A DNA stretch of 64,000 bases from Candidatus Bandiella woodruffii (GTDB lineage Bacteria; Pseudomonadota; Alphaproteobacteria; Rickettsiales; Midichloriaceae): assembly GCF_034359465.1 (NCBI RefSeq), contig NZ_CP110820.1:372001-436000 (forward strand). The letters run 5' to 3'. The notes below the pieces were generated by a model that saw only the letters and a list, made by a program, of their open reading frames with translations, did no database searches and was not told where the DNA came from. Shown in pieces: positions 8,013 through 60,222 of the stretch. Position 1 is the stretch's first letter; every line of letters starts with the position of its first letter. The translations under genes were made by a program, and so were the position numbers.

Positions 8013-8174
8013 TATACTCCGATAACTTGAAAAATTGGCGTCGTCATACTTCGGACTTCGCATAACGTTTAGGTACATATGTACGCGCCTCATGCTCATC
8101 GCTTGTATTCCTAGCTCTTTTCCAAGTTCTATGTCGTCTATAAATTTGCCAACCCTTGATTTACTAGAGGTATA
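8013..8174 (-). repeat. 162-bp dispersed repeat, copy A (full length)
   Basis: It runs from TATACTCCGATAAC to GAGGTATA and is over 90% identical to copy C (57155-57316). It lies 11 bases after the mutM stop and in the same sense. It contains the palindrome GTACATATGTAC. Read on the minus strand it is open for all 54 codons (KSRVGKFID... to ANFSSYRSI). Its short, imperfect terminal inverted repeat is TATACCTC/TATACTCC. Confidence 0.85.
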
Positions 8175-21705: not shown

Positions 21706-22013
21706 AAAGTATACTCCCAATAGGTTAAGCTAATATATGGGAGATAGGCTTGGAAGCATATAAAAGTACATAACGAAATGTAAAATTCGTAATATGACGA
21801 CGCAAATTTTGAGCTAACGGCGGAGTTATTAATTGTTTTTTGTGAAAAAATAGTTATCATCGCATAATGTGCTTCTACCATAATTAACACATGTGGTTGA
21901 AGATAAAATTATGGCATGGAATATCTTCTAACTAGCTTAGTCACTTGCATTCTGTTGTTAAGATGTTTAATTAAATTCCAATAGAGTGTTTTTTGTGGAT
22001 TAGCCTTTTATGC
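21706..22013. other. Intergenic region with hairpin and repeat remnant
   Basis: Five bases after the regulator stop, CTCCCA ... TGGGAG (about 21712-21742) could form a hairpin without a clear T tract. A degenerate repeat copy follows at 21740-21828. The remaining ~185 bases up to tRNA-Arg show no gene. Confidence 0.4.
21740..21828 (+). repeat. Degenerate partial copy of the 162-bp repeat (copy G)
   Basis: AGCATATAAAAGTACATAACG and ATGACGACGCAAATTTTGAG align with the second half of the minus-strand reading of copy A. It lies downstream of and in the same sense as the XRE regulator gene. Confidence 0.5.
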
Positions 22014-25839: not shown

Positions 25840-26290
25840 AACAATACCTCTAACTAAAAATTATATGTTCAGATTCAATATATTGTAGCCAATATAAAAA
25901 TTCAAGTTAATGATGATAATATTCGTATATTTGATAGGTAAGGACATGGGGGTGAGATGTTTTGCTAACCACACGCAAGTTAGTAAAATTTAATTGATAT
26001 AAGTGGTTAAAGTTTTGAAGGTTCTTTGCTGGCATTTACCATCAAATCCATAAGGTTTTCCACTAAGATTACTATTTTCTTACCGATTTCTTTCTCTTCT
26101 TAATTACCCTATTGCCTGTATTTTACTAATTTTGACGAGAGTACCTTCAAAAGAGTCATAAATATGAGCAATGAGCACACAAGAGTACTCAGAAGTTATG
26201 CAAAATGACTACACTAATTTTTTAACTTAACGGAGCACATGCAGCATACGAAATACTCTTCCCGCTCACTTTTAAAATGTTTCCTTCCTT
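25840..26290. other. Intergenic region between rpsA and peroxiredoxin genes
   Basis: No open frame of significance. It contains a degenerate copy of the 162-bp repeat (26103-26238) lying antisense to both neighbours. The 260 bases nearer the peroxiredoxin gene should hold its promoter, but no confident motif was found. Confidence 0.45.
26103..26238 (+). repeat. Degenerate copy of the 162-bp repeat (copy D)
   Basis: TGAGCAATGAGCACACAAG and ATGACTACACTAATTTTTTA align in order with the minus-strand reading of copy A, and the end CTTAACGGAGCACA matches GTTATCGGAGTATA. Head and tail are both recognisable, so this is an old full-length copy. Confidence 0.5.
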
Positions 26291-34146: not shown

Positions 34147-34155
34147 AGAAAATTT

Positions 34156-35778
34156 GGGAGTGTTGCCATAAGATAGATAAGATGCTAAAATGAATATAGC
34201 GAGCAACAAAGAAAATAGAGATATGAATACAGAGTGTAAAAAATGCAGTAGCAGTAAATACGTTAAGAATGGTAATATTAGGGGTATGCAAAGGTATAAA
34301 TGCAAAGAGTGTGGATGTAATTTTACAAGCACTAAATTAAGAGGCTGTTCGCCAGAGATGAAGGCTCTGGCAGTGTTATTGTACAGCATGGGGAAAAGTA
34401 GCTTTAGATGGCTAGGGAAATTATTTAAAGTAGCTCATACTAGCGTATATAAGTGGATAATACTGTATGCTAAAAAGATACCAAGACCAACAGTGCCGGA
34501 AGAATTGAGAGAAGTTGAAACAGATGAGATGTGGCATTTTGTAGATTCAAAAAAAACAAATTATGGATATGGAAAGCCTATAGTAGGGAGCTCAAGAGAG
34601 TTGTTGCCTGGGTGGTTGGTAAGCGTAACGTTACAACCTTTAGAAAATTGTGGAAAATCATAAGTAGAGATAATTGCACTTATTACACAGACGATTGGTC
34701 TGTTTATTCAGAGGTTATACCTCGCCATCAACATGTTGTTGGCAAACAACATACACTCTCAATTGAGTCCAATAACTCAAACACAAGGCACAGAATTGCA
34801 AGAATGACCAGAAAAACAAAGGTAGTTTCAAAATCTGAAGAAGTTGTCGATCTTACGATTAAGCTCTGGGTACATTTTGAGGATAACAATAATTTCCTAG
34901 ATAGTGTCGTCATGAGATTTGTGGTATAATATGAAAGAAAAGATAAATCAGGAGTAAAAATGGATTTAGGGCTACATAGGCATGATATAACAGATAATAT
35001 GTGGGATTTGATAAAGGATCATTTGCCAGGAAGGGAAGGTACGTGGGGAGGTTTGGCACATAATAACAGAAGATTCATTAACGCAGTATTTTGGATATTA
35101 AGAACAGGTTCTCCCTGGAGAGATTTGCCTTCAGAATATGGAGGATGGAAAAATACACATAAAAGATTTTGCAGATGGAGAGACAAAAGGATATGGGAGG
35201 CTTTATTGGAGATATTTGTGAAAGAACCTGATATGGAATGATTAATGATAGACGCAAGTCATAGTAAAGTGCATCCACATGCTTCAGGTGCAAAAGGCGG
35301 CAATCAAGATATGAGTCGTACAAAAGGGGGCTCAATACAAAGATTCACCTTGCCGTGGATTCACATGGTATGCCACTCAAAGTTATTGTCACAAAAGGCT
35401 CAGAAGCTGATTGCAAGCAGGCTGTTAATCTTATTGAAGAGATGAAAGCTGAGTACTTACTAGCCGACAGAGGGTACGATGCTAATTACATAATTGACCA
35501 TGCCCAAGAATTGGGCATGAGAGTTGTTATTCCTCCTAAAAAGAACAGAATCACCCAGAGAAAATACAATAAAGATTTATATAAAATAAGGCATATTGTA
35601 GAAAACACCTTTCTTCATCTTAAAAGATGGAGGGGAATTGCAACCAGATATGCTAAAAATTCAGCTTCTTTCCTTGCCGCAATTCAGATTAGATGCTTAT
35701 CTCTTTGGCTTAAAATCTCATGACGACATTATCTAAGTGAGCAGGGCAATTTTATATCTATCTTTGGCTAACACTCTG
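34156..35778 (+). mobile_element. IS1-family element, copy a, interrupted by IS5
   Basis: Without IS5 it is 787 bp. The ends share GAGTGTTGCCATAAGATA (right end with two changes near its tip). It is flanked by the direct repeat GAAAATTT (34148-34155 and 35779-35786), an 8-bp duplication. The first frame (34190-34663) starts MNIASNKENRDMNTECKKC with a zinc-ribbon-like C-x2-C pair; the second frame carries KNKLWIWKAYSRELKR ... TDDWSVYSEVIP. An A8C run near 34550 is the expected -1 frameshift site. Confidence 0.88.
34900..35733 (+). mobile_element. IS5-family element, copy 3 (834 bp)
   Basis: Both ends are intact with TA on each side; removal of the element plus one TA restores the IS1 frame (NNNFLSEQ). 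The transposase is broken by a TGG to TGA change (after EPDME, 35239). The second part (35355-35723) is open. The A4G5 run before it puts it in another frame. Confidence 0.9.
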
Positions 35779-35900
35779 GAAAATTTATACAGCTCCCTCA
35801 GAACAAGTGGCAGCCCTAGAATTGCAAGACTTTGCCGAAAAATGGGATAAAAAATATCCTGTTATTTCCGATATTTGGAAAAGAAATTGGTCGGGAATTA

Positions 35901-36734
35901 GATAATGTCGTCATGAGATTTTAAGCCAAAGAGATAAGCATCTAATCTGAATTGCGGCAAGAAAAGAAGCTGAATTTTTAGCATATCTGGTTGCAATTCC
36001 CCTCCATCTTTTAAGATGAAGAAAGGTGTTTTCTACAATATGCCTTATTTTGTATAAATCTTTATTGTATTTTCTCTGGGTGATTCTGTTCTTTTTAGGA
36101 GGAATAACAACTCTCATGCCCAATTCTTGGGCATGGTCAATTATGTAATTAGCATCGTACCCTCTGTCGGCTAGTAAGTACTCAGCTTTCATCTCTTCAA
36201 TAAGATTAACAGCCTGCTTGCAATCAGCTTCTGAGCCTTTTGTGACAATAACTTTGAGTGGCATACCATGTGAATCCACGGCAAGGTGAATCTTTGTATT
36301 GAGCCCCCTTTTGTACGACTCATATCTTGATTGCCGCCTTTTGCACCTGAAGCATGTGGATGCACTTTACTATGACTTGCGTCTATCATTAATCATTCCA
36401 TATCAGGTTCTTTCACAAATATCTCCAATAAAGCCTCCCATATCCTTTTGTCTCTCCATCTGCAAAATCTTTTATGTGTATTTTTCCATCCTCCATATTC
36501 TGAAGGCAAATCTCTCCAGGGAGAACCTGTTCTTAATATCCAAAATACTGCGTTAATGAATCTTCTGTTATTATGTGCCAAACCTCCCCACGTACCTTCC
36601 CTTCCTGGCAAATGATCCTTTATCAAATCCCACATATTATCTGTTATATCATGCCTATGTAGCCCTAAATCCATTTTTACTCCTGATTTGTCTTTTCTTT
36701 CATATTATATCACAAATCTCATGACGACACTATC
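35901..36734 (-). mobile_element. IS5-family element, copy 4 (834 bp)
   Basis: This is a complete copy in inverted orientation to copy 3, with TA on both sides. It carries the same TGA nonsense mutation after EPDME, so the two share a recent parent. Removing it with one TA restores the IS256 reading frame WSGIRKLFAF. Confidence 0.9.
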
Positions 36735-36812
36735 TAGGAAATTATTCGCCTTCCCTGATGAAATTAGAAAAGTGATCTATACGACAAACAATATTAAATC
36801 AGCAAATCGGTA

Positions 36813-36979: not shown

Positions 36980-37591
36980 ATGATTGGTAGACTTTCAGGG
37001 AAAGTTAGTGAGCTGGGATCTGATTATGTTGTCGTTGATGTTGGTGGAGTGGGATATATTGTATTTTGTTCCAGTAAGATAATTTGCAAGTATAATGTGA
37101 ATGACGAAATTGAACTAATCACTCAAACAATTGTTAAAGAGAACGATATTAGTATTTTCGGCTTTGCAACCAACATAGATAAAGAATTTTTCAACCATCT
37201 CTTAACCATTCAAGGTGTGGGAGCAAAACTTGCCCAGACTGTGATAGGTGGTCTTACTATTGACGAAATTATAGAAGCAGTTCAAACAGAGGATGACAGT
37301 AAGTTTACTAGAATTAATGGTGTTGGACCTAAGCTTGCAGCAAGGCTTGTTAATGAGTTAAAAAGCAAAAAATTCATAAGCAAACTGCAAATGATCAAAT
37401 CTAAAACTGATATAGAAAAAATAGTTGGAGTTGAGCCTATGCCTAAAATCTTGGACGCTAAATCGGTGCTTGTAAATTTAGGTTACAATAATATTAAGAT
37501 AAACCACGTAATTCACGAGATCATATCAATGCACGGTGATATAGATTTAGAAGAACTAATAAAATTAGGAATTAAAAAACTTTCTGCTTAA
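36980..37591 (+). CDS. ruvA: Holliday junction DNA-binding protein RuvA
   Basis: RuvA tetramers bind the Holliday junction and load RuvB. The 203-residue protein has the OB-fold start MIGRLSGKVSELGSDYVVVD, two helix-hairpin-helix motifs (TIQGVGAKLAQTVIGGL and INGVGPKLAARLVNEL), and the C-terminal RuvB-contacting domain. ruvC and ruvB are not adjacent. Upstream lie ISs and downstream a nested repeat. Confidence 0.95.
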   Translation: MIGRLSGKVSELGSDYVVVDVGGVGYIVFCSSKIICKYNVNDEIELITQTIVKENDISIFGFATNIDKEFFNHLLTIQGVGAKLAQTVIGGLTIDEIIEAVQTEDDSKFTRINGVGPKLAARLVNELKSKKFISKLQMIKSKTDIEKIVGVEPMPKILDAKSVLVNLGYNNIKINHVIHEIISMHGDIDLEELIKLGIKKLSA

Positions 37592-37595
37592 CACA

Positions 37596-37912
37596 CACCT
37601 CAAACAAATTAAGAATTGGAAAATGTATAAGCGACATATATACTCCGATAACTTGAAAAATTGGCGTCAAAATACTTCGGACTTCGCATTTCGTCACGTA
37701 CTTTTATACGCTCCTCATGCTCATCACTCGTATTCCTCGCTTTTTCCCAAGTTCTCTGTCGTCTATAAATTTCATCAACTCTTGATTTACGAGAGGTATA
37801 TCTTGAAAAAAGCTAGGCCATGAGCGATGAGCATCAGGATTGTACAAGAGTACGTGATGAAATGCCTCAGTCCGATATATGACTACGCTAACTTTTTAGG
37901 TTATCAGAGTAG
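37596..37912 (+). repeat. Old repeat copy interrupted by a newer one (host copy B')
   Basis: The plus-sense head (37596-37638, ACCTCAAACAAATTAAG...) and tail (37801-37912, CTTGAAAAAAGCTAGG ... TTATCAGAGTA) make one ~155-base copy of the repeat. A complete minus-sense copy (37639-37800) sits between them at a TA/TATA. The copy begins four bases after the ruvA stop and ends six bases before the NadM-like start. Confidence 0.75.
37639..37800 (-). repeat. 162-bp dispersed repeat, copy B (nested insertion)
   Basis: It is exactly 162 bases from TATACTCCG to GAGGTATA, like copies A and C, but oriented opposite to the host copy that it splits. The first ~50 bases are nearly identical to A; the middle differs (no GTACATATGTAC palindrome). 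Confidence 0.85.
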
Positions 37913-37918
37913 ATATTT

Positions 37919-38473
37919 ATGAAATACGATTATTTAGTTTTTATAGGTAGGTTTCAACCTTTTCATAATGGCCACAAGCATGTCATTAAAGAGGGGCTTA
38001 AAATTGCAAAAAAAATTATAGTGTTTTGTGGGTCTGCCAATCAACCCAAAAGCGCTAAGAATCCTTGGAGTTATAAAGAAAGACGTTATTTTATTTTAAA
38101 AAGCTTTGATGAAACAACATTGAGACGGTTGTGTGTCAAGCCATCAAACGACTATCCAAATGATAAGACATGGGTAGAAGAAGTTGAAAAGAAAGTTGGA
38201 AAAATAGTAAAAAAAGGTACCACGAATGCTAGCATCGCGTTAATTGGATGCGACAAAGATCAAAGTTCGTACTATTTAAAGTTATTTACAAAATGGAAAT
38301 TAATAGAAATCCAACATTTTAAAAAAATCAACGCAACTCATATCAGAGATATATATTGCGCCATAAAAGATAATGAACAAGTAATCAGTGCAATCAAAAA
38401 CTTGGTACCCAAAGAAGTTCTTATGTTTTTAATTAGACCGAAAGTTAGAGACCGGATAAAAATGGTAAGGTAA
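37919..38473 (+). CDS. NadM-like nicotinamide-nucleotide adenylyltransferase
   Basis: The 184-residue nucleotidyltransferase has GRFQPFHNGHKHVI near the N-terminus (HxGH motif) and INATHIRDIY, matching the ISSTxxR loop. WSYKERRYFI and the DKDQSSYYL segment fit the NadM branch, which joins NMN and ATP to NAD. It lacks the Nudix domain of the bifunctional forms. It starts right after the nested repeat, with a poor ribosome-binding site. Confidence 0.75.
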   Translation: MKYDYLVFIGRFQPFHNGHKHVIKEGLKIAKKIIVFCGSANQPKSAKNPWSYKERRYFILKSFDETTLRRLCVKPSNDYPNDKTWVEEVEKKVGKIVKKGTTNASIALIGCDKDQSSYYLKLFTKWKLIEIQHFKKINATHIRDIYCAIKDNEQVISAIKNLVPKEVLMFLIRPKVRDRIKMVR

Positions 38474-40684: not shown

Positions 40685-41503
40685 TATCACGTATACCAAT
40701 AGTAGAAACAAACCCTAAAGTTGCAAACACTGCAATTAAACCAGTTGTTCCATATATGCTAAAATTATTATAGAAAAAATCATTGAGTATTGGCATAAAT
40801 GCAGCAGTAATAGATACTCCTATGCCATAGCTAAATGATACATGCGTATTACGTACATTGATTGTAAAAAAACTACATATCATTTTCGGTGTGGGCATAC
40901 AGAATATAATATGAGTTAATGTGACCAGCAGCTGTGCAATCATAAAGATTTTTATATTTTCACTATGATAGCCGAAAATTAGTGCCGGAATACCTATGCA
41001 AATTGTAGCTATGGAGCCAGTACGCATTATTCTAACGATAGGTATAGAATAACGATCACTTATGATACCTACAATAGGTAGGAATATTACCCACACAAGA
41101 TGTAATACTAAATTAATAAAAAATACTGTTTGCATATCAATCGCGAACTTTTGTATTATAATTTTATTACAGTAGATCATAATGGTGAAGAATATAAATA
41201 TCAAACATGAACTCGCAGCTATTACATTTAAATAACTGCATACCGTAGAATTACTACTATTATATTTACTAAAAATCATGTTTTTCGATTCTTTCTGCAC
41301 ATAAGTTTCTGTCAACATTGCGCGTCCCTTAAGTGAAAGCAATCCTATAAGCCCGGCAAGCATAAATATATGTTGAAATTTGTTACTACTTAAATAGGCG
41401 CAAATACAAGCAACTGCTCCTCCAAAATGAGTTGCTGCAATAAGTAATGATCCATAGAATAAGCGTCTGTTTTGACCTACTATTTCAAAAATATAAGTCA
41501 TTG
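40677..41503 (-). pseudogene. MFS transporter, C-terminal ~275 residues (N-terminus lost to IS1)
   Basis: Hydrophobic segments include FYGSLLIAATHFGGAVACI, VIAASSCLIFIFFTIMI, VFFINLVLHLVWVIFLP and IAVFATLGFVSTIG. GIISDRYSIPIVRIMRTGS resembles the MFS loop-8 signature (ProP-like). About 150 N-terminal residues are missing because an IS1 end abuts at 41504. It is coupled to the aldo/keto reductase gene. Confidence 0.7.
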
Positions 41504-41805
41504 CAGAGTGTTAGCCAAAGATAGATATAAAATTGCCCTGCTCACTTAGGAAATTATTGTTATCCTCAAAATGTAGCCAGAGCTTAATCGTAAGATCGAC
41601 AACTTCTTCAGATTTTGAAACTACCTTTGTTTTTCTGGTCATTCTTGCAATTCTGTGCCTTGTGTTTGAGTTATTGGACTCAATTGAGAGTGTATGTTGT
41701 TTGCCAACAACATGTTGATGGCGAGGTATAACCTCTGAATAAACAGACCAATCGTCTGTGTAATAAGTGCAATTATCTCTACTTATGATTTTCCACAATT
41801 TTCTA
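41504..41805 (-). mobile_element. IS1-family element, copy b (3' part only)
   Basis: The right end CAGAGTGTTAGCCAAAG and the last ~95 codons of the transposase are present, then IS5 begins at a TA. The remaining IS1 5' part does not reappear after that IS5, so the locus was later rearranged. Its end is identical to the unusual right end of copy a (35757-35778). Confidence 0.82.
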
Positions 41806-43435
41806 GATAGTGTCGTCATGAGATTTGTGGTATAATATGAAAGAAAAGATAAATCAGGAGTAAAAATGGATTTAGGGCTACATAGGCATGATATAACAGA
41901 TAATATGTGGGATTTGATAAAGGATCATTTGCCAGGAAGGGAAGGTACGTGGGGAGGTTTGGCACATAATAACAGAAGATTCATTAACGCAGTATTTTGG
42001 ATATTAAGAACAGGTTCTCCCTGGAGAGATTTGCCTTCAGAATATGGAGGATGGAAAAATACACATAAAAGATTTTGCAGATGGAGAGACAAAAGGATAT
42101 GGGAGGCTTTATTGGAGATATTTGTGAAAGAACCTGATATGGAATGGTTAATGATAGACGCAAGTCATAGTAAAGTGCATCCACATGCTTCAGGTGCAAA
42201 AGGCGGCAATCAAGATATGAGTCGTACAAAAGGGGGGCTCAATACAAAGATTCACCTTGCCGTGGATTCACATGGTATGCCACTCAAAGTTATTGTCACA
42301 AAAGGCTCAGAAGCTGATTGCAAGCAGGCTGTTAATCTTATTGAAGAGATGAAAGCTGAGTACTTACTAGCCGACAGAGGGTACGATGCTAATTACATAA
42401 TTGACCATGCCCAAGAATTGGGCATGAGCGTTGTTATTCCTCCTAAAAAGAACAGAATCACCCAGAGAAAATACAATAAAGATTTCAGAGTGTTGCCATA
42501 AGATAGATATAAAATTGCCCTGCTCACTTAGGAAATTATTGTTATCCTCAAAATGTACCCAGAGCTTAATCGTAAGATCGACAACTTCTTCAGATTTTGA
42601 AACTACCTTTGTTTTTCTGGTCATTCTTGCAATTCTGTGCCTTGTGTTTGAGTTATTGGACTCAATTGAGAGTGTATGTTGTTTGCCAACAACATGTTGA
42701 TGGCGAGGTATAACCTCTGAATAAACAGACCAATCGTCTGTGTAATAAGTGCAATTATCTCTACTTATGATTTTCCACAATTTTCTAAAGGTTGTAACGT
42801 TACGCTTACCAACCACCCAGGCAACAACTCTCTTGAGCTCCCTACTATAGGCTTTCCATATCCATAATTTGTTTTTTTTGAATCTACAAAATGCCACATC
42901 TCATCTATTTCAACTTCTCTCAATTCTTCCGGCACTGTTGGTCTTGGTATCTTTTTAGCATACAGTATTATCCACTTATATACGCTAGTATGAGCTACTT
43001 TAAATAATTTCCCTAGCCATCTAAAGCTACTTTTTCCCATGCTGTACAATAACACTGCCAGAGCCTTCATCTCTGGCGAACAGCCTCTTAATTTAGTGTT
43101 TGTAAAATTACATCCACACTCTTTGCATTTATACCTTTGCATACCCCTAATATTACCATTCTTAACGTATTTACTGCTACTGCATTTTTTACACTCTGTA
43201 TTCATATCTCTATTTTCTTTGTTGCTCGCTATATTCATTTTAGCATCTTATCTATCTTATGGCAACACTCCCAAAGATTTATATAAAATAAGGCATATTG
43301 TAGAAAACACCTTTCTTCATCTTAAAAGATGGAGGGGAATTGCAACCAGATATGCTAAAAATTCAGCTTCTTTCCTTGCCGCAATTCAGATTAGATGTTT
43401 ATCTCTTTGGCTTAAAATCTCATGACGACATTATC
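41806..43435 (+). mobile_element. IS5-family element, copy 6, with fused reading frame, interrupted by IS1
   Basis: IS5 parts are 41806-42485 and 43273-43435, separated by a full IS1. The transposase frame runs through without a shift (A4G6 at ~42225) for 205 residues up to the IS1. It includes MIDASHSKVHPHASGAKGG, DMSRTKGGLNTKIHLAVDSH and YLLADRGYDANYIIDH. The left flank is IS1 interior and the right flank is unrelated sequence, so the flanks have been exchanged. Confidence 0.88.
42486..43272 (-). mobile_element. IS1-family element, copy c (787 bp, complete)
   Basis: It is inserted in IS5 copy 6 with an 8-bp direct repeat AAAGATTT (42478-42485 and 43273-43280). Frame one (43238-42765) and frame two overlap; the A8C run (plus-strand T8 at 42872-42879) allows a -1 shift giving FVDSKKNKLWIWKAYSRE. 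Frame two holds TDDWSVYSEVIP, IESNNSNTRHRIARMTRKTK and VVSKSEEVVDL. No stop lies inside the element in frame two; translation ends in the target. Confidence 0.9.
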
Positions 43436-43639
43436 TAGTATATATTTACAAAGTCCTGTGAAGAATAATGTGTGAGCTCTTTAAGTCGATAAAAAGCAAA
43501 TCTTAGGAAGTAGAGTATGGGAGCGTTGAAAGATAAAATAAGGATAAATGTGATGGTTTGATTTAAGGAAGTTTGGACCATGGTCTAAAAAAATTAACAA
43601 AAAACTGGTTTCCCCAAGAATTCAAAAGATTTCTTTGAG
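43436..43639. other. Orphan sequence between IS5 copy 6 and IS1 copy d
   Basis: Two hundred bases without a convincing frame. It does not match other parts of the window and is probably a fragment of a lost gene trapped between insertion sequences. Confidence 0.4.
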
Positions 43640-44426
43640 GGGAGTGTTGCCATAAGATAGATAAGATGCTAAAATGAATATAGCGAGCAACAAAGAAAAT
43701 AGAAATATGAATACAGAGTGTAAAAAATGCAGTAGCAGTAAATACGTTAAGAATGGTAACATTAGGGGTATGCAAAGGTATAAATGCAAAGAGTGTGGAT
43801 GTAATTTTACAAGCACTAAATTAAGAGGCTGTTCGCCAGAGATGAAGGCTCTGGCAGTGTTATTGTACAGCATGGGAAAAAAGTAGCTTTAGATGGCTAG
43901 GGAAATTATTTAAAGTAGCTCATACTAGCGTATATAAGTGGATAATACTGTATGCTAAAAAGATACCAAGACCAACAGTGCCGGAAGAATTGAGAGAAGT
44001 TGAAATAGATGAGATGTGGCATTTTGTAGATTCAAAAAAACAAATTATGGATATGGAAAGCCTATAGTAGGGAGCTCAAGAGAGTTGTTGCCTGGGTGGT
44101 TGGTAAGCGTAACGTTACAACCTTTAGAAAATTGTGGAAAATCATAAGTAGAGATAATTGCACTTATTACACAGACGATTGGTCTGTTTATTCAGAGGTT
44201 ATACCTCGCCATCAACATGTTGTTGGCAAACAACATACACTCTCAATTGAGTCCAATAACTCAAACACAAGGCACAGAATTGCAAGAATGACCAGAAAAA
44301 CAAAGGTAGTTTCAAAATCTGAAGAAGTTGTCGATCTTACGATTAAGCTCTGGGTACATTTTGAGGATAACAATAATTTCCTAAGTGAGCAGGGCAATTT
44401 TATATCTATCTTATGGCAACACTCTG
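43640..44426 (+). mobile_element. IS1-family element, copy d (decayed)
   Basis: It is complete in length, but an extra A near 43876 (GGGAAAAAAG) stops the first frame after ~70 residues, and the slip run is A7C instead of A8C. It is followed directly by an inverted IS1 piece. The copy is inactive. Confidence 0.88.
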
Positions 44427-44603
44427 GTGTTTGTAAAATTACATCCACACTCTTTGCATTTATACCTTTGCATACCCCTAATATTACCATTCTTAACGTA
44501 TTTACTGCTACTGCATTTTTTACACTCTGTATTCATATTTCTATTTTCTTTGTTGCTCGCTATATTCATTTTAGCATCTTATCTATCTTATGGCAACACT
44601 CCC
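44427..44603 (-). mobile_element. IS1-family left-end fragment, inverted
   Basis: This 177-base piece covers the IS1 left end and first ~50 codons in minus orientation. It carries the GTGTTTG variant found in copy c rather than the GTGCTTG of copies a and d. It abuts copy d tail to head and interrupts the RDD gene on its right side. Confidence 0.85.
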
Positions 44604-57154: not shown

Positions 57155-57316
57155 TATACTCCGATAACTTGAAAAATTGGCCTCAAAATACTTCGGATTT
57201 CGCATAACGTTTAGGTACATATGTACGCGCCTCATGCTCATCGCTTGTATTCCTAGCTCTTTTCCAAGTTCTCTTTCGTCTATAAATTTGCCAACCCTTG
57301 ATTTACTAGAGGTATA
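57155..57316 (-). repeat. 162-bp dispersed repeat, copy C (full length)
   Basis: It has the same length and ends as copies A and B and differs from A at only about seven positions, some of them clustered. It ends six bases from the folC stop, in the same sense as folC. Its 54-codon frame is open (ending NPKYFEANFSSYRSI), with amino acid changes such as DDIE to DERE relative to A. Confidence 0.85.
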
Positions 57317-60052: not shown

Positions 60053-60190
60053 AATACCTCAAGTCAAATCAAGAATTGAAAAATGTATAGACGGCAGATA
60101 ACTTCAAAAGAGGATGTTATAAGGAGTGTGTAAGAATAATCAACAAAATGCTTATCCAAAATATTTTGAGACCAATTTTGAAGTTAGCGA
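60053..60190 (+). repeat. Old full-length copy of the 162-bp repeat (copy H)
   Basis: The head AATACCTCAAGTCAAATCAAG and the tail CCAAAATATTTTGAGACCAA both align with the element (TATACCTCTAGTAAATCAAG; CCGAAGTATTTTGACGCCAA). It lies downstream of and in the same sense as smpB. Divergence is high. Confidence 0.6.
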
Positions 60191-60222
60191 ATTATATGCC
60201 ATTGAATTATGCGAAAAAATTG

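Follow-up and report, generated by a model that had tools for sequence, protein, structure and literature searches.

The Rickettsia palindromic elements (RPEs) are the textbook example of mobile elements whose insertion leaves the invaded protein genes unbroken. No enzyme that moves RPEs was found named in the open-licence literature that we searched, and in a 2007 review their target duplication was entered as '?' (PMC2229807). Nor did we find a report of RPE-like elements in Midichloriaceae in the open-licence PMC literature, absence from which is no proof. Here we analyse a repeat family that is best explained, with a probability that we put at roughly 0.85, as a non-autonomous mobile palindromic element related divergently to RPE-5 and residing in a Midichloriaceae genome. 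While the RPE kind is already known, a member outside Rickettsia, in Midichloriaceae, is new.

The window, by which we mean the whole analysed stretch of 64,000 nucleotides, contains a nested pair of copies of the repeat, with the following features.

36980..37591, plus strand: RuvA gene, intact, directly upstream of the nested pair (RuvA_N, HHH_5, RuvA_C)
37595..37913, plus strand: older, diverged, interrupted copy, with left piece 37595-37638 and right piece 37801-37913 (profile match of the joined host; covariance-model match 409764-409913, plus strand)
37639..37800, minus strand: inserted intact RPE-5-like copy, with ends TATACTCC...GAGGTATA in plus-strand reading (sequence; BLAST, profile and covariance-model matches)
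37641-37798: element proper, TACTCC...GAGGTA, with the TA duplication on either side (by the TA rule from the empty sites described below)
37919..38473, plus strand: cytidylyltransferase-like gene, probably a nucleotidyltransferase, intact, the downstream neighbour (CTP_transf_like)

The nearest named relatives of the host's RuvA are Aquarickettsia and Midichloriaceae records. A profile that was built from 32 copies of the window's own genome, with no sequence from the genome family f11 (see below), recovers the minus-strand inner copy, 37639-37800, at E 1e-52 and the outer copy in two plus-strand pieces, 37596-37660 (E 0.02) and 37789-37911 (E 3e-18). When 160 bp net are taken out and the outer pieces joined, one full-length member of the family is obtained (HMM 3-159, 82.8 bits, E 1e-26), while the alternative excisions of 158 bp and 162 bp score lower, at 78.4 and 78.2 bits, respectively. 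The net 160 bp is equal to the 158-bp element TACTCC...GAGGTA plus one TA, and the joined host site GCGACATATATCTTG is equal in length to the uninterrupted GCGACATAGAACTTG. The sequence and the own-genome profile are thus in agreement with the earlier note, made from the letters of the window, that a complete minus-sense copy of 162 bp splits an older plus-sense copy; its placing of the insertion at a TA is likewise borne out by the best join and by the empty sites in relatives. The extent of 162 bp given there is right for the copy, but the element proper is 158 bp, the larger figure counting a TA on each side. The ends were also described there as short inverted repeats, which holds over about 6 bp, but the match is imperfect (TACCTC against TACTCC) and there is none beyond TACYYC.

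Five more copies are present in the window.

8013..8174, minus strand: complete copy of the GGC/CTAAACG-variant subfamily, carrying GACGACATAGAACTTG (profile E 9e-54; BLAST)
21716..21828, plus strand: degraded copy (profile E 2e-7)
26113..26239, plus strand: degraded copy (profile E 2e-7)
57155..57316, minus strand: complete copy between convergent genes (profile E 4e-53; BLAST)
60053..60196, plus strand: diverged copy of the same superfamily (profile E 2e-11; covariance model C1:432053-432196)

Against the whole genome, BLAST with the inner copy gave 50 matches, 42 of them of at least half length and many 95-100% identical, and the covariance model gave 95 matches at E<=1e-3. In total, the genome has about 95 copies, some 40 of them close ones, and the family is far beyond chance. 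As is expected of an RPE, the element is short, multicopy and dispersed in this genome. Its copies stand with sharp ends at unrelated sites, and the ends of the family are fixed, TACYYC...GRRGTA. Subfamilies in the genome differ blockwise, and a shorter relative of about 126 bp (family B, TATACTCAAAG...GGAGAGTATA) has the core in common and a different left arm. Several young copies adjoin or overlap older ones, mostly with one TATA in common. Among 30 copies, the flanking genes are convergent in 16, co-directional in 11 and divergent in three, with the convergent share to be compared with 22% of sampled intergenic regions (p ~2e-4, on rough ORF-based gene calls). Note also that both subfamilies of the 162-bp copy are open over 54 codons; coding selection on the element is not claimed, because most copies in the relative G004 carry stops despite these open frames. 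On the nested palindrome, an Rfam search gave miRNA models and nothing else, all of them well short of the gathering thresholds, which we take as chance, and no match of the repeat was found among named plasmids.

Two further observations were made in this genome. At G000:C1:482231-483409 (L004/L015; G000 is the window's genome), tandem copies have common TATA junctions, and one of them is interrupted at a CTAG inside TATACCTCTAGTAAATC by an IS5-group element, for which the repeat has served as target. In the window, 34150-36750 and 41500-44600 form a dense mosaic of IS5-group (DUF4096) and IS1-like elements, including a near-perfect inverted repeat of 849 bp whose arms enclose 161 bp.

The check that the earlier note had asked for, empty sites in relatives, was carried out in G004 and G014, congeneric relatives that carry the family in many and in few copies, respectively, and such sites were found between the two, at loci other than the nested one of the window. 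Six insertion sites are empty in the other genome of the pair, and two of them can be read to the base, both with a TA duplication around the TACYYC...GRRGTA ends and a net difference of the element plus TA. At one of the two, the element lies in frame within the ribose-phosphate pyrophosphokinase (PRPP-synthetase-like) gene of G004, with the junctions GATTA/TATACCTC...GGAGTATA/CAAAG, while the G014 ortholog is empty; in the DNA, GATTATACAAAAG in G014 stands against GATTATATACCTC...GGAGTATACAAAGG in G004, and in the protein FGDYTKDAVFV stands against FTDY, 53 codons and then TKDAVFV. At the other, G014 has GGTA/TATACTCC...GAGGTATA/AAATG and G004 the empty GGTATAAAATG. Flanks were also joined from another eight sites (six G004 insertions and two G014 insertions) and used as queries, and for five of them the other genome has a match that runs through the junction. 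One of the five, the G014 insertion just given, is base-exact; at L133, L178, L078 and L094 the alignment of the empty site likewise spans the junction, with diverged bases there, L094 being also gapped. L182, with a match of only 69%, was left out of the six-site count, both genomes carry the insertion at L085, and the joined flanks of L092 found nothing in the other genome that spans the junction. Thus, the sites of the family are polymorphic between the two congeneric genomes, and the element targets TA and duplicates it, as read at the two sites in the relatives and at the nested site of the window. A duplication of the 4-bp TATA, an idea suggested by the tandem copies with one TATA, was rejected, since TA agrees both with the two base-readable sites and with the best join of the nested pair. 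In-frame insertions in protein genes were seen in the relatives only, in PRPP synthetase (G004) and in a FliK-like gene (G014), and no convincing case was seen in the window's genome.

Some loci of the relatives deserve mention in their own right. G020, of another genus, has a single copy (L076, G020:C66:2996-3156) that is 86% identical to the window's, its congeners G009 and G017 being without any; the copy looks like a recent horizontal arrival, and its flanks are rearranged in G017, which gives no clean empty site. At positions 702-1213 of L180 (G014:C156:3000-4800), the element (ACGGACAAAAAATTTATAGACGACAGG...) is repeated head to tail in four units, each about 132 bp long and open in frame across a 187-aa ORF, so that one may ask whether the element has here given rise to a tandem-repeat protein. 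At about 1329-1468 of L090 (G004:C51), the apical loop of one copy holds an insert of another kind, with palindromic ends (GACCTCTCCGGAAACTC...GAGTTTCCGAAGAGGTC). L088 and L095 of G014 have short right-end modules, TATAGCGACAACG(T/C)CAATTTTTCAAGTTAACGGAGT(A/G)TA, which have TATA at their borders and look as though the interior had been excised between TATA sites.

As to kinship, a covariance-model search of 105 genomes of the order gave matches in 13, belonging to f1 (Midichloriaceae, the family of the host), to f11 and, in one case, to f7. The RPE1 domain is present in 7/7 f11 genomes tested and in 0/14 controls, from which we infer that the f11 genomes are Rickettsia and kin. The covariance model had taken in one f11 sequence (L082), but the own-genome profile also matches f11 copies, at E 1.3e-16 and weaker, and this objection is thereby removed. 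The translation of the f11 element L142 matches RPE5 (TIGR03776) over its whole length (E 1.2e-21), and RPE5 domain matches coincide with covariance-model matches in several genomes. It is through these elements carrying the RPE5 domain that sequence homology to a named RPE class is found. The RPE5 protein model itself has 0 matches in the window's genome and in seven other f1 genomes tested; hence the kinship is one of DNA, of structure and of a moderately similar peptide. The host belongs to f1 and not to Rickettsia, where an RPE is expected, or to Wolbachia, where a WPE is. Judged from these sequence comparisons, the family appears to be a divergent RPE-5-type element outside Rickettsiaceae rather than a private MITE, and the picture of a MITE in the earlier note was incomplete in that it missed both the homology to RPE-5 and a covarying stem-loop.

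For the stem-loop, 65 distinct aligned elements from the own, sister and f11 genomes were used. Stem pairing is kept in 93.6% of 1272 cells, changes on both sides of the stem number 178 versus 58 in shuffles, and the covariation score is 0.36 versus 0.17, with 0/500 shuffles reaching the observed values. The alignment was fitted to the model and so favours it, but the contrast with controls in which the partner was slid along is large, the paired cells there falling to 25-47%. Across two bacterial families, compensatory changes have preserved the complementarity of the arms, in a long palindromic stem-loop such as characterises the RPEs. The hairpin is imperfect and more stable on one strand. 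With two fixed G-U pairs set aside, the G-U and A-C cells (36 vs 31) have no strand bias, so that neither strandedness of the structure nor selection at the RNA level is shown.

Which machinery has moved the element can now be considered. The earlier note proposed a TA-targeting MITE of IS630/mariner type, and the empty sites support mobility, the TA target and the MITE size, while the IS630/mariner likeness is unproven. As in a MITE, target duplication is found at precise ends, and a TA duplication is common to the element and IS630-derived elements. It could be supposed that the repeat is a classical MITE, derived by internal deletion from an IS630-family element of the lineage itself that furnished the transposase and was later lost. 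Such an origin would account for the TA duplication at the empty sites and would fit the presence of an IS630 remnant in the genome (its only DDE_3 match, truncated and without readable ends) and of full IS630 elements in several relatives, whose ends likewise start with TA-TA. Those ends, readable at 5/7 loci, begin with TATAGC, TATAGT or TATAAG and have no more than TATA in common with the element, being unlike TACCTC/TACTCC. Moreover, the terminal inverted repeat is very short and imperfect, and the covarying hairpin middle is shared with RPE-5 of Rickettsia-type genomes, for which recent derivation from a local IS would not account; we therefore regard this origin as possible but rather unlikely. 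In line with the earlier note, which saw no matching transposase, no transposase or autonomous element with TACTCC/TACCTC ends was found in the genome or in the relatives' loci examined, including the IS630 loci read. Unpaired ends in G004 and G014 were looked at as traces of a long autonomous element and rejected, the neighbouring ORFs showing no transposase.

The strong, conserved hairpin, with its greater stability on one strand, and the preference for convergent gene ends might instead point to movement as single-stranded DNA or RNA, by a Y1/RAYT-type transposase or by reverse transcription of a structured RNA. REP elements, which are connected with a Y1/RAYT-type transposase, have the same preference for convergent gene ends. 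IS200/IS605-type transposition makes no target duplication, so that a base-exact TA duplication with fixed ends is unexpected from it, as it is from target-primed reverse transcription; together with the missing strand bias, this makes such movement improbable. The same excess of copies between convergent genes and the conserved stem-loop would also suit an intergenic repeat with a function, e.g. as a bidirectional terminator or RNA-processing site, that is not mobile and has been spread by gene conversion or rearrangement. This is evidently contradicted by the empty sites, with precise insertions into one coding gene and beside another, and it is also at odds with an intact copy inside another and with sharp-ended copies at unrelated sites, so that we consider it very improbable, although copies may possibly have gained a function after insertion.

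For the mobile RPE-5 relative that we prefer, the TA duplication and the fixed ends suggest a DDE transposase of the IS630/Tc1-mariner type. It would have acted in trans on the short ends, as the element has no transposase coding capacity and no matching full element was found; we give this enzyme an about even chance. In the window, a young copy would have landed on a TATA within the older copy, just downstream of ruvA. Copies would survive mainly where harm is small, above all between convergent genes, and would occasionally enter an open reading frame in phase. More tentatively still, RPE-type elements could be one ancient Rickettsiales superfamily, still moving by TA-duplicating transposition with a trans-acting enzyme and very short ends, the conserved hairpin being itself part of the recognition.

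The main value of these results is a base-level target site for the RPE group, whose target duplication was left open in the 2007 review; for this branch, the relatives' TA sites offer an answer. The lineage supplies what had been lacking, namely sites that are polymorphic between congeneric genomes and whose empty counterparts can be read, a homologous family outside Rickettsia, and new in-frame gene insertions, and this makes the mechanism of the RPEs testable.

Finally, we compare the element with known systems. With RPE-5 (TIGR03776) it has in common homologous DNA over most of the element, the apical GCGTAY..RTACGT(GA) hairpin, the GCCAATTTTT right arm and a same-frame peptide with about 40% identity to that of one Rickettsia-type copy. 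It differs in its Midichloriaceae host, where the RPE5 protein model is silent; its length is 158 bp, compared with about 150 bp in f11, and Rpe-5 of R. conorii is listed at 115 bp (PMC2267715). RPE-1 (TIGR01045) is similar in its in-frame insertions and in a hairpin that is likewise long and imperfect, with GCGTAY...GTACGTGAGGA at the apex as here, but it has a long terminal inverted repeat, TAGACATCTT...AAGATGTCTA, and its domain was not found in the window's genome. Correia/NEMIS, RUP and ERIC, bacterial MITEs flanked by TA, resemble the element in general features, namely about 100-160 bp, TA ends, target duplication, a stem-loop and no internal transposase, with no sequence relation seen, while their terminal inverted repeats are longer, at 7-24 bp (table in PMC2229807). 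The IS630/Tc1-mariner elements of the same order share the TA target duplication, but their readable ends are TATAG.. or TATAAG.., and the repeat is without a transposase gene. Unlike in a classical MITE, the inverted repetition between the two ends of the element stops after TACYYC.
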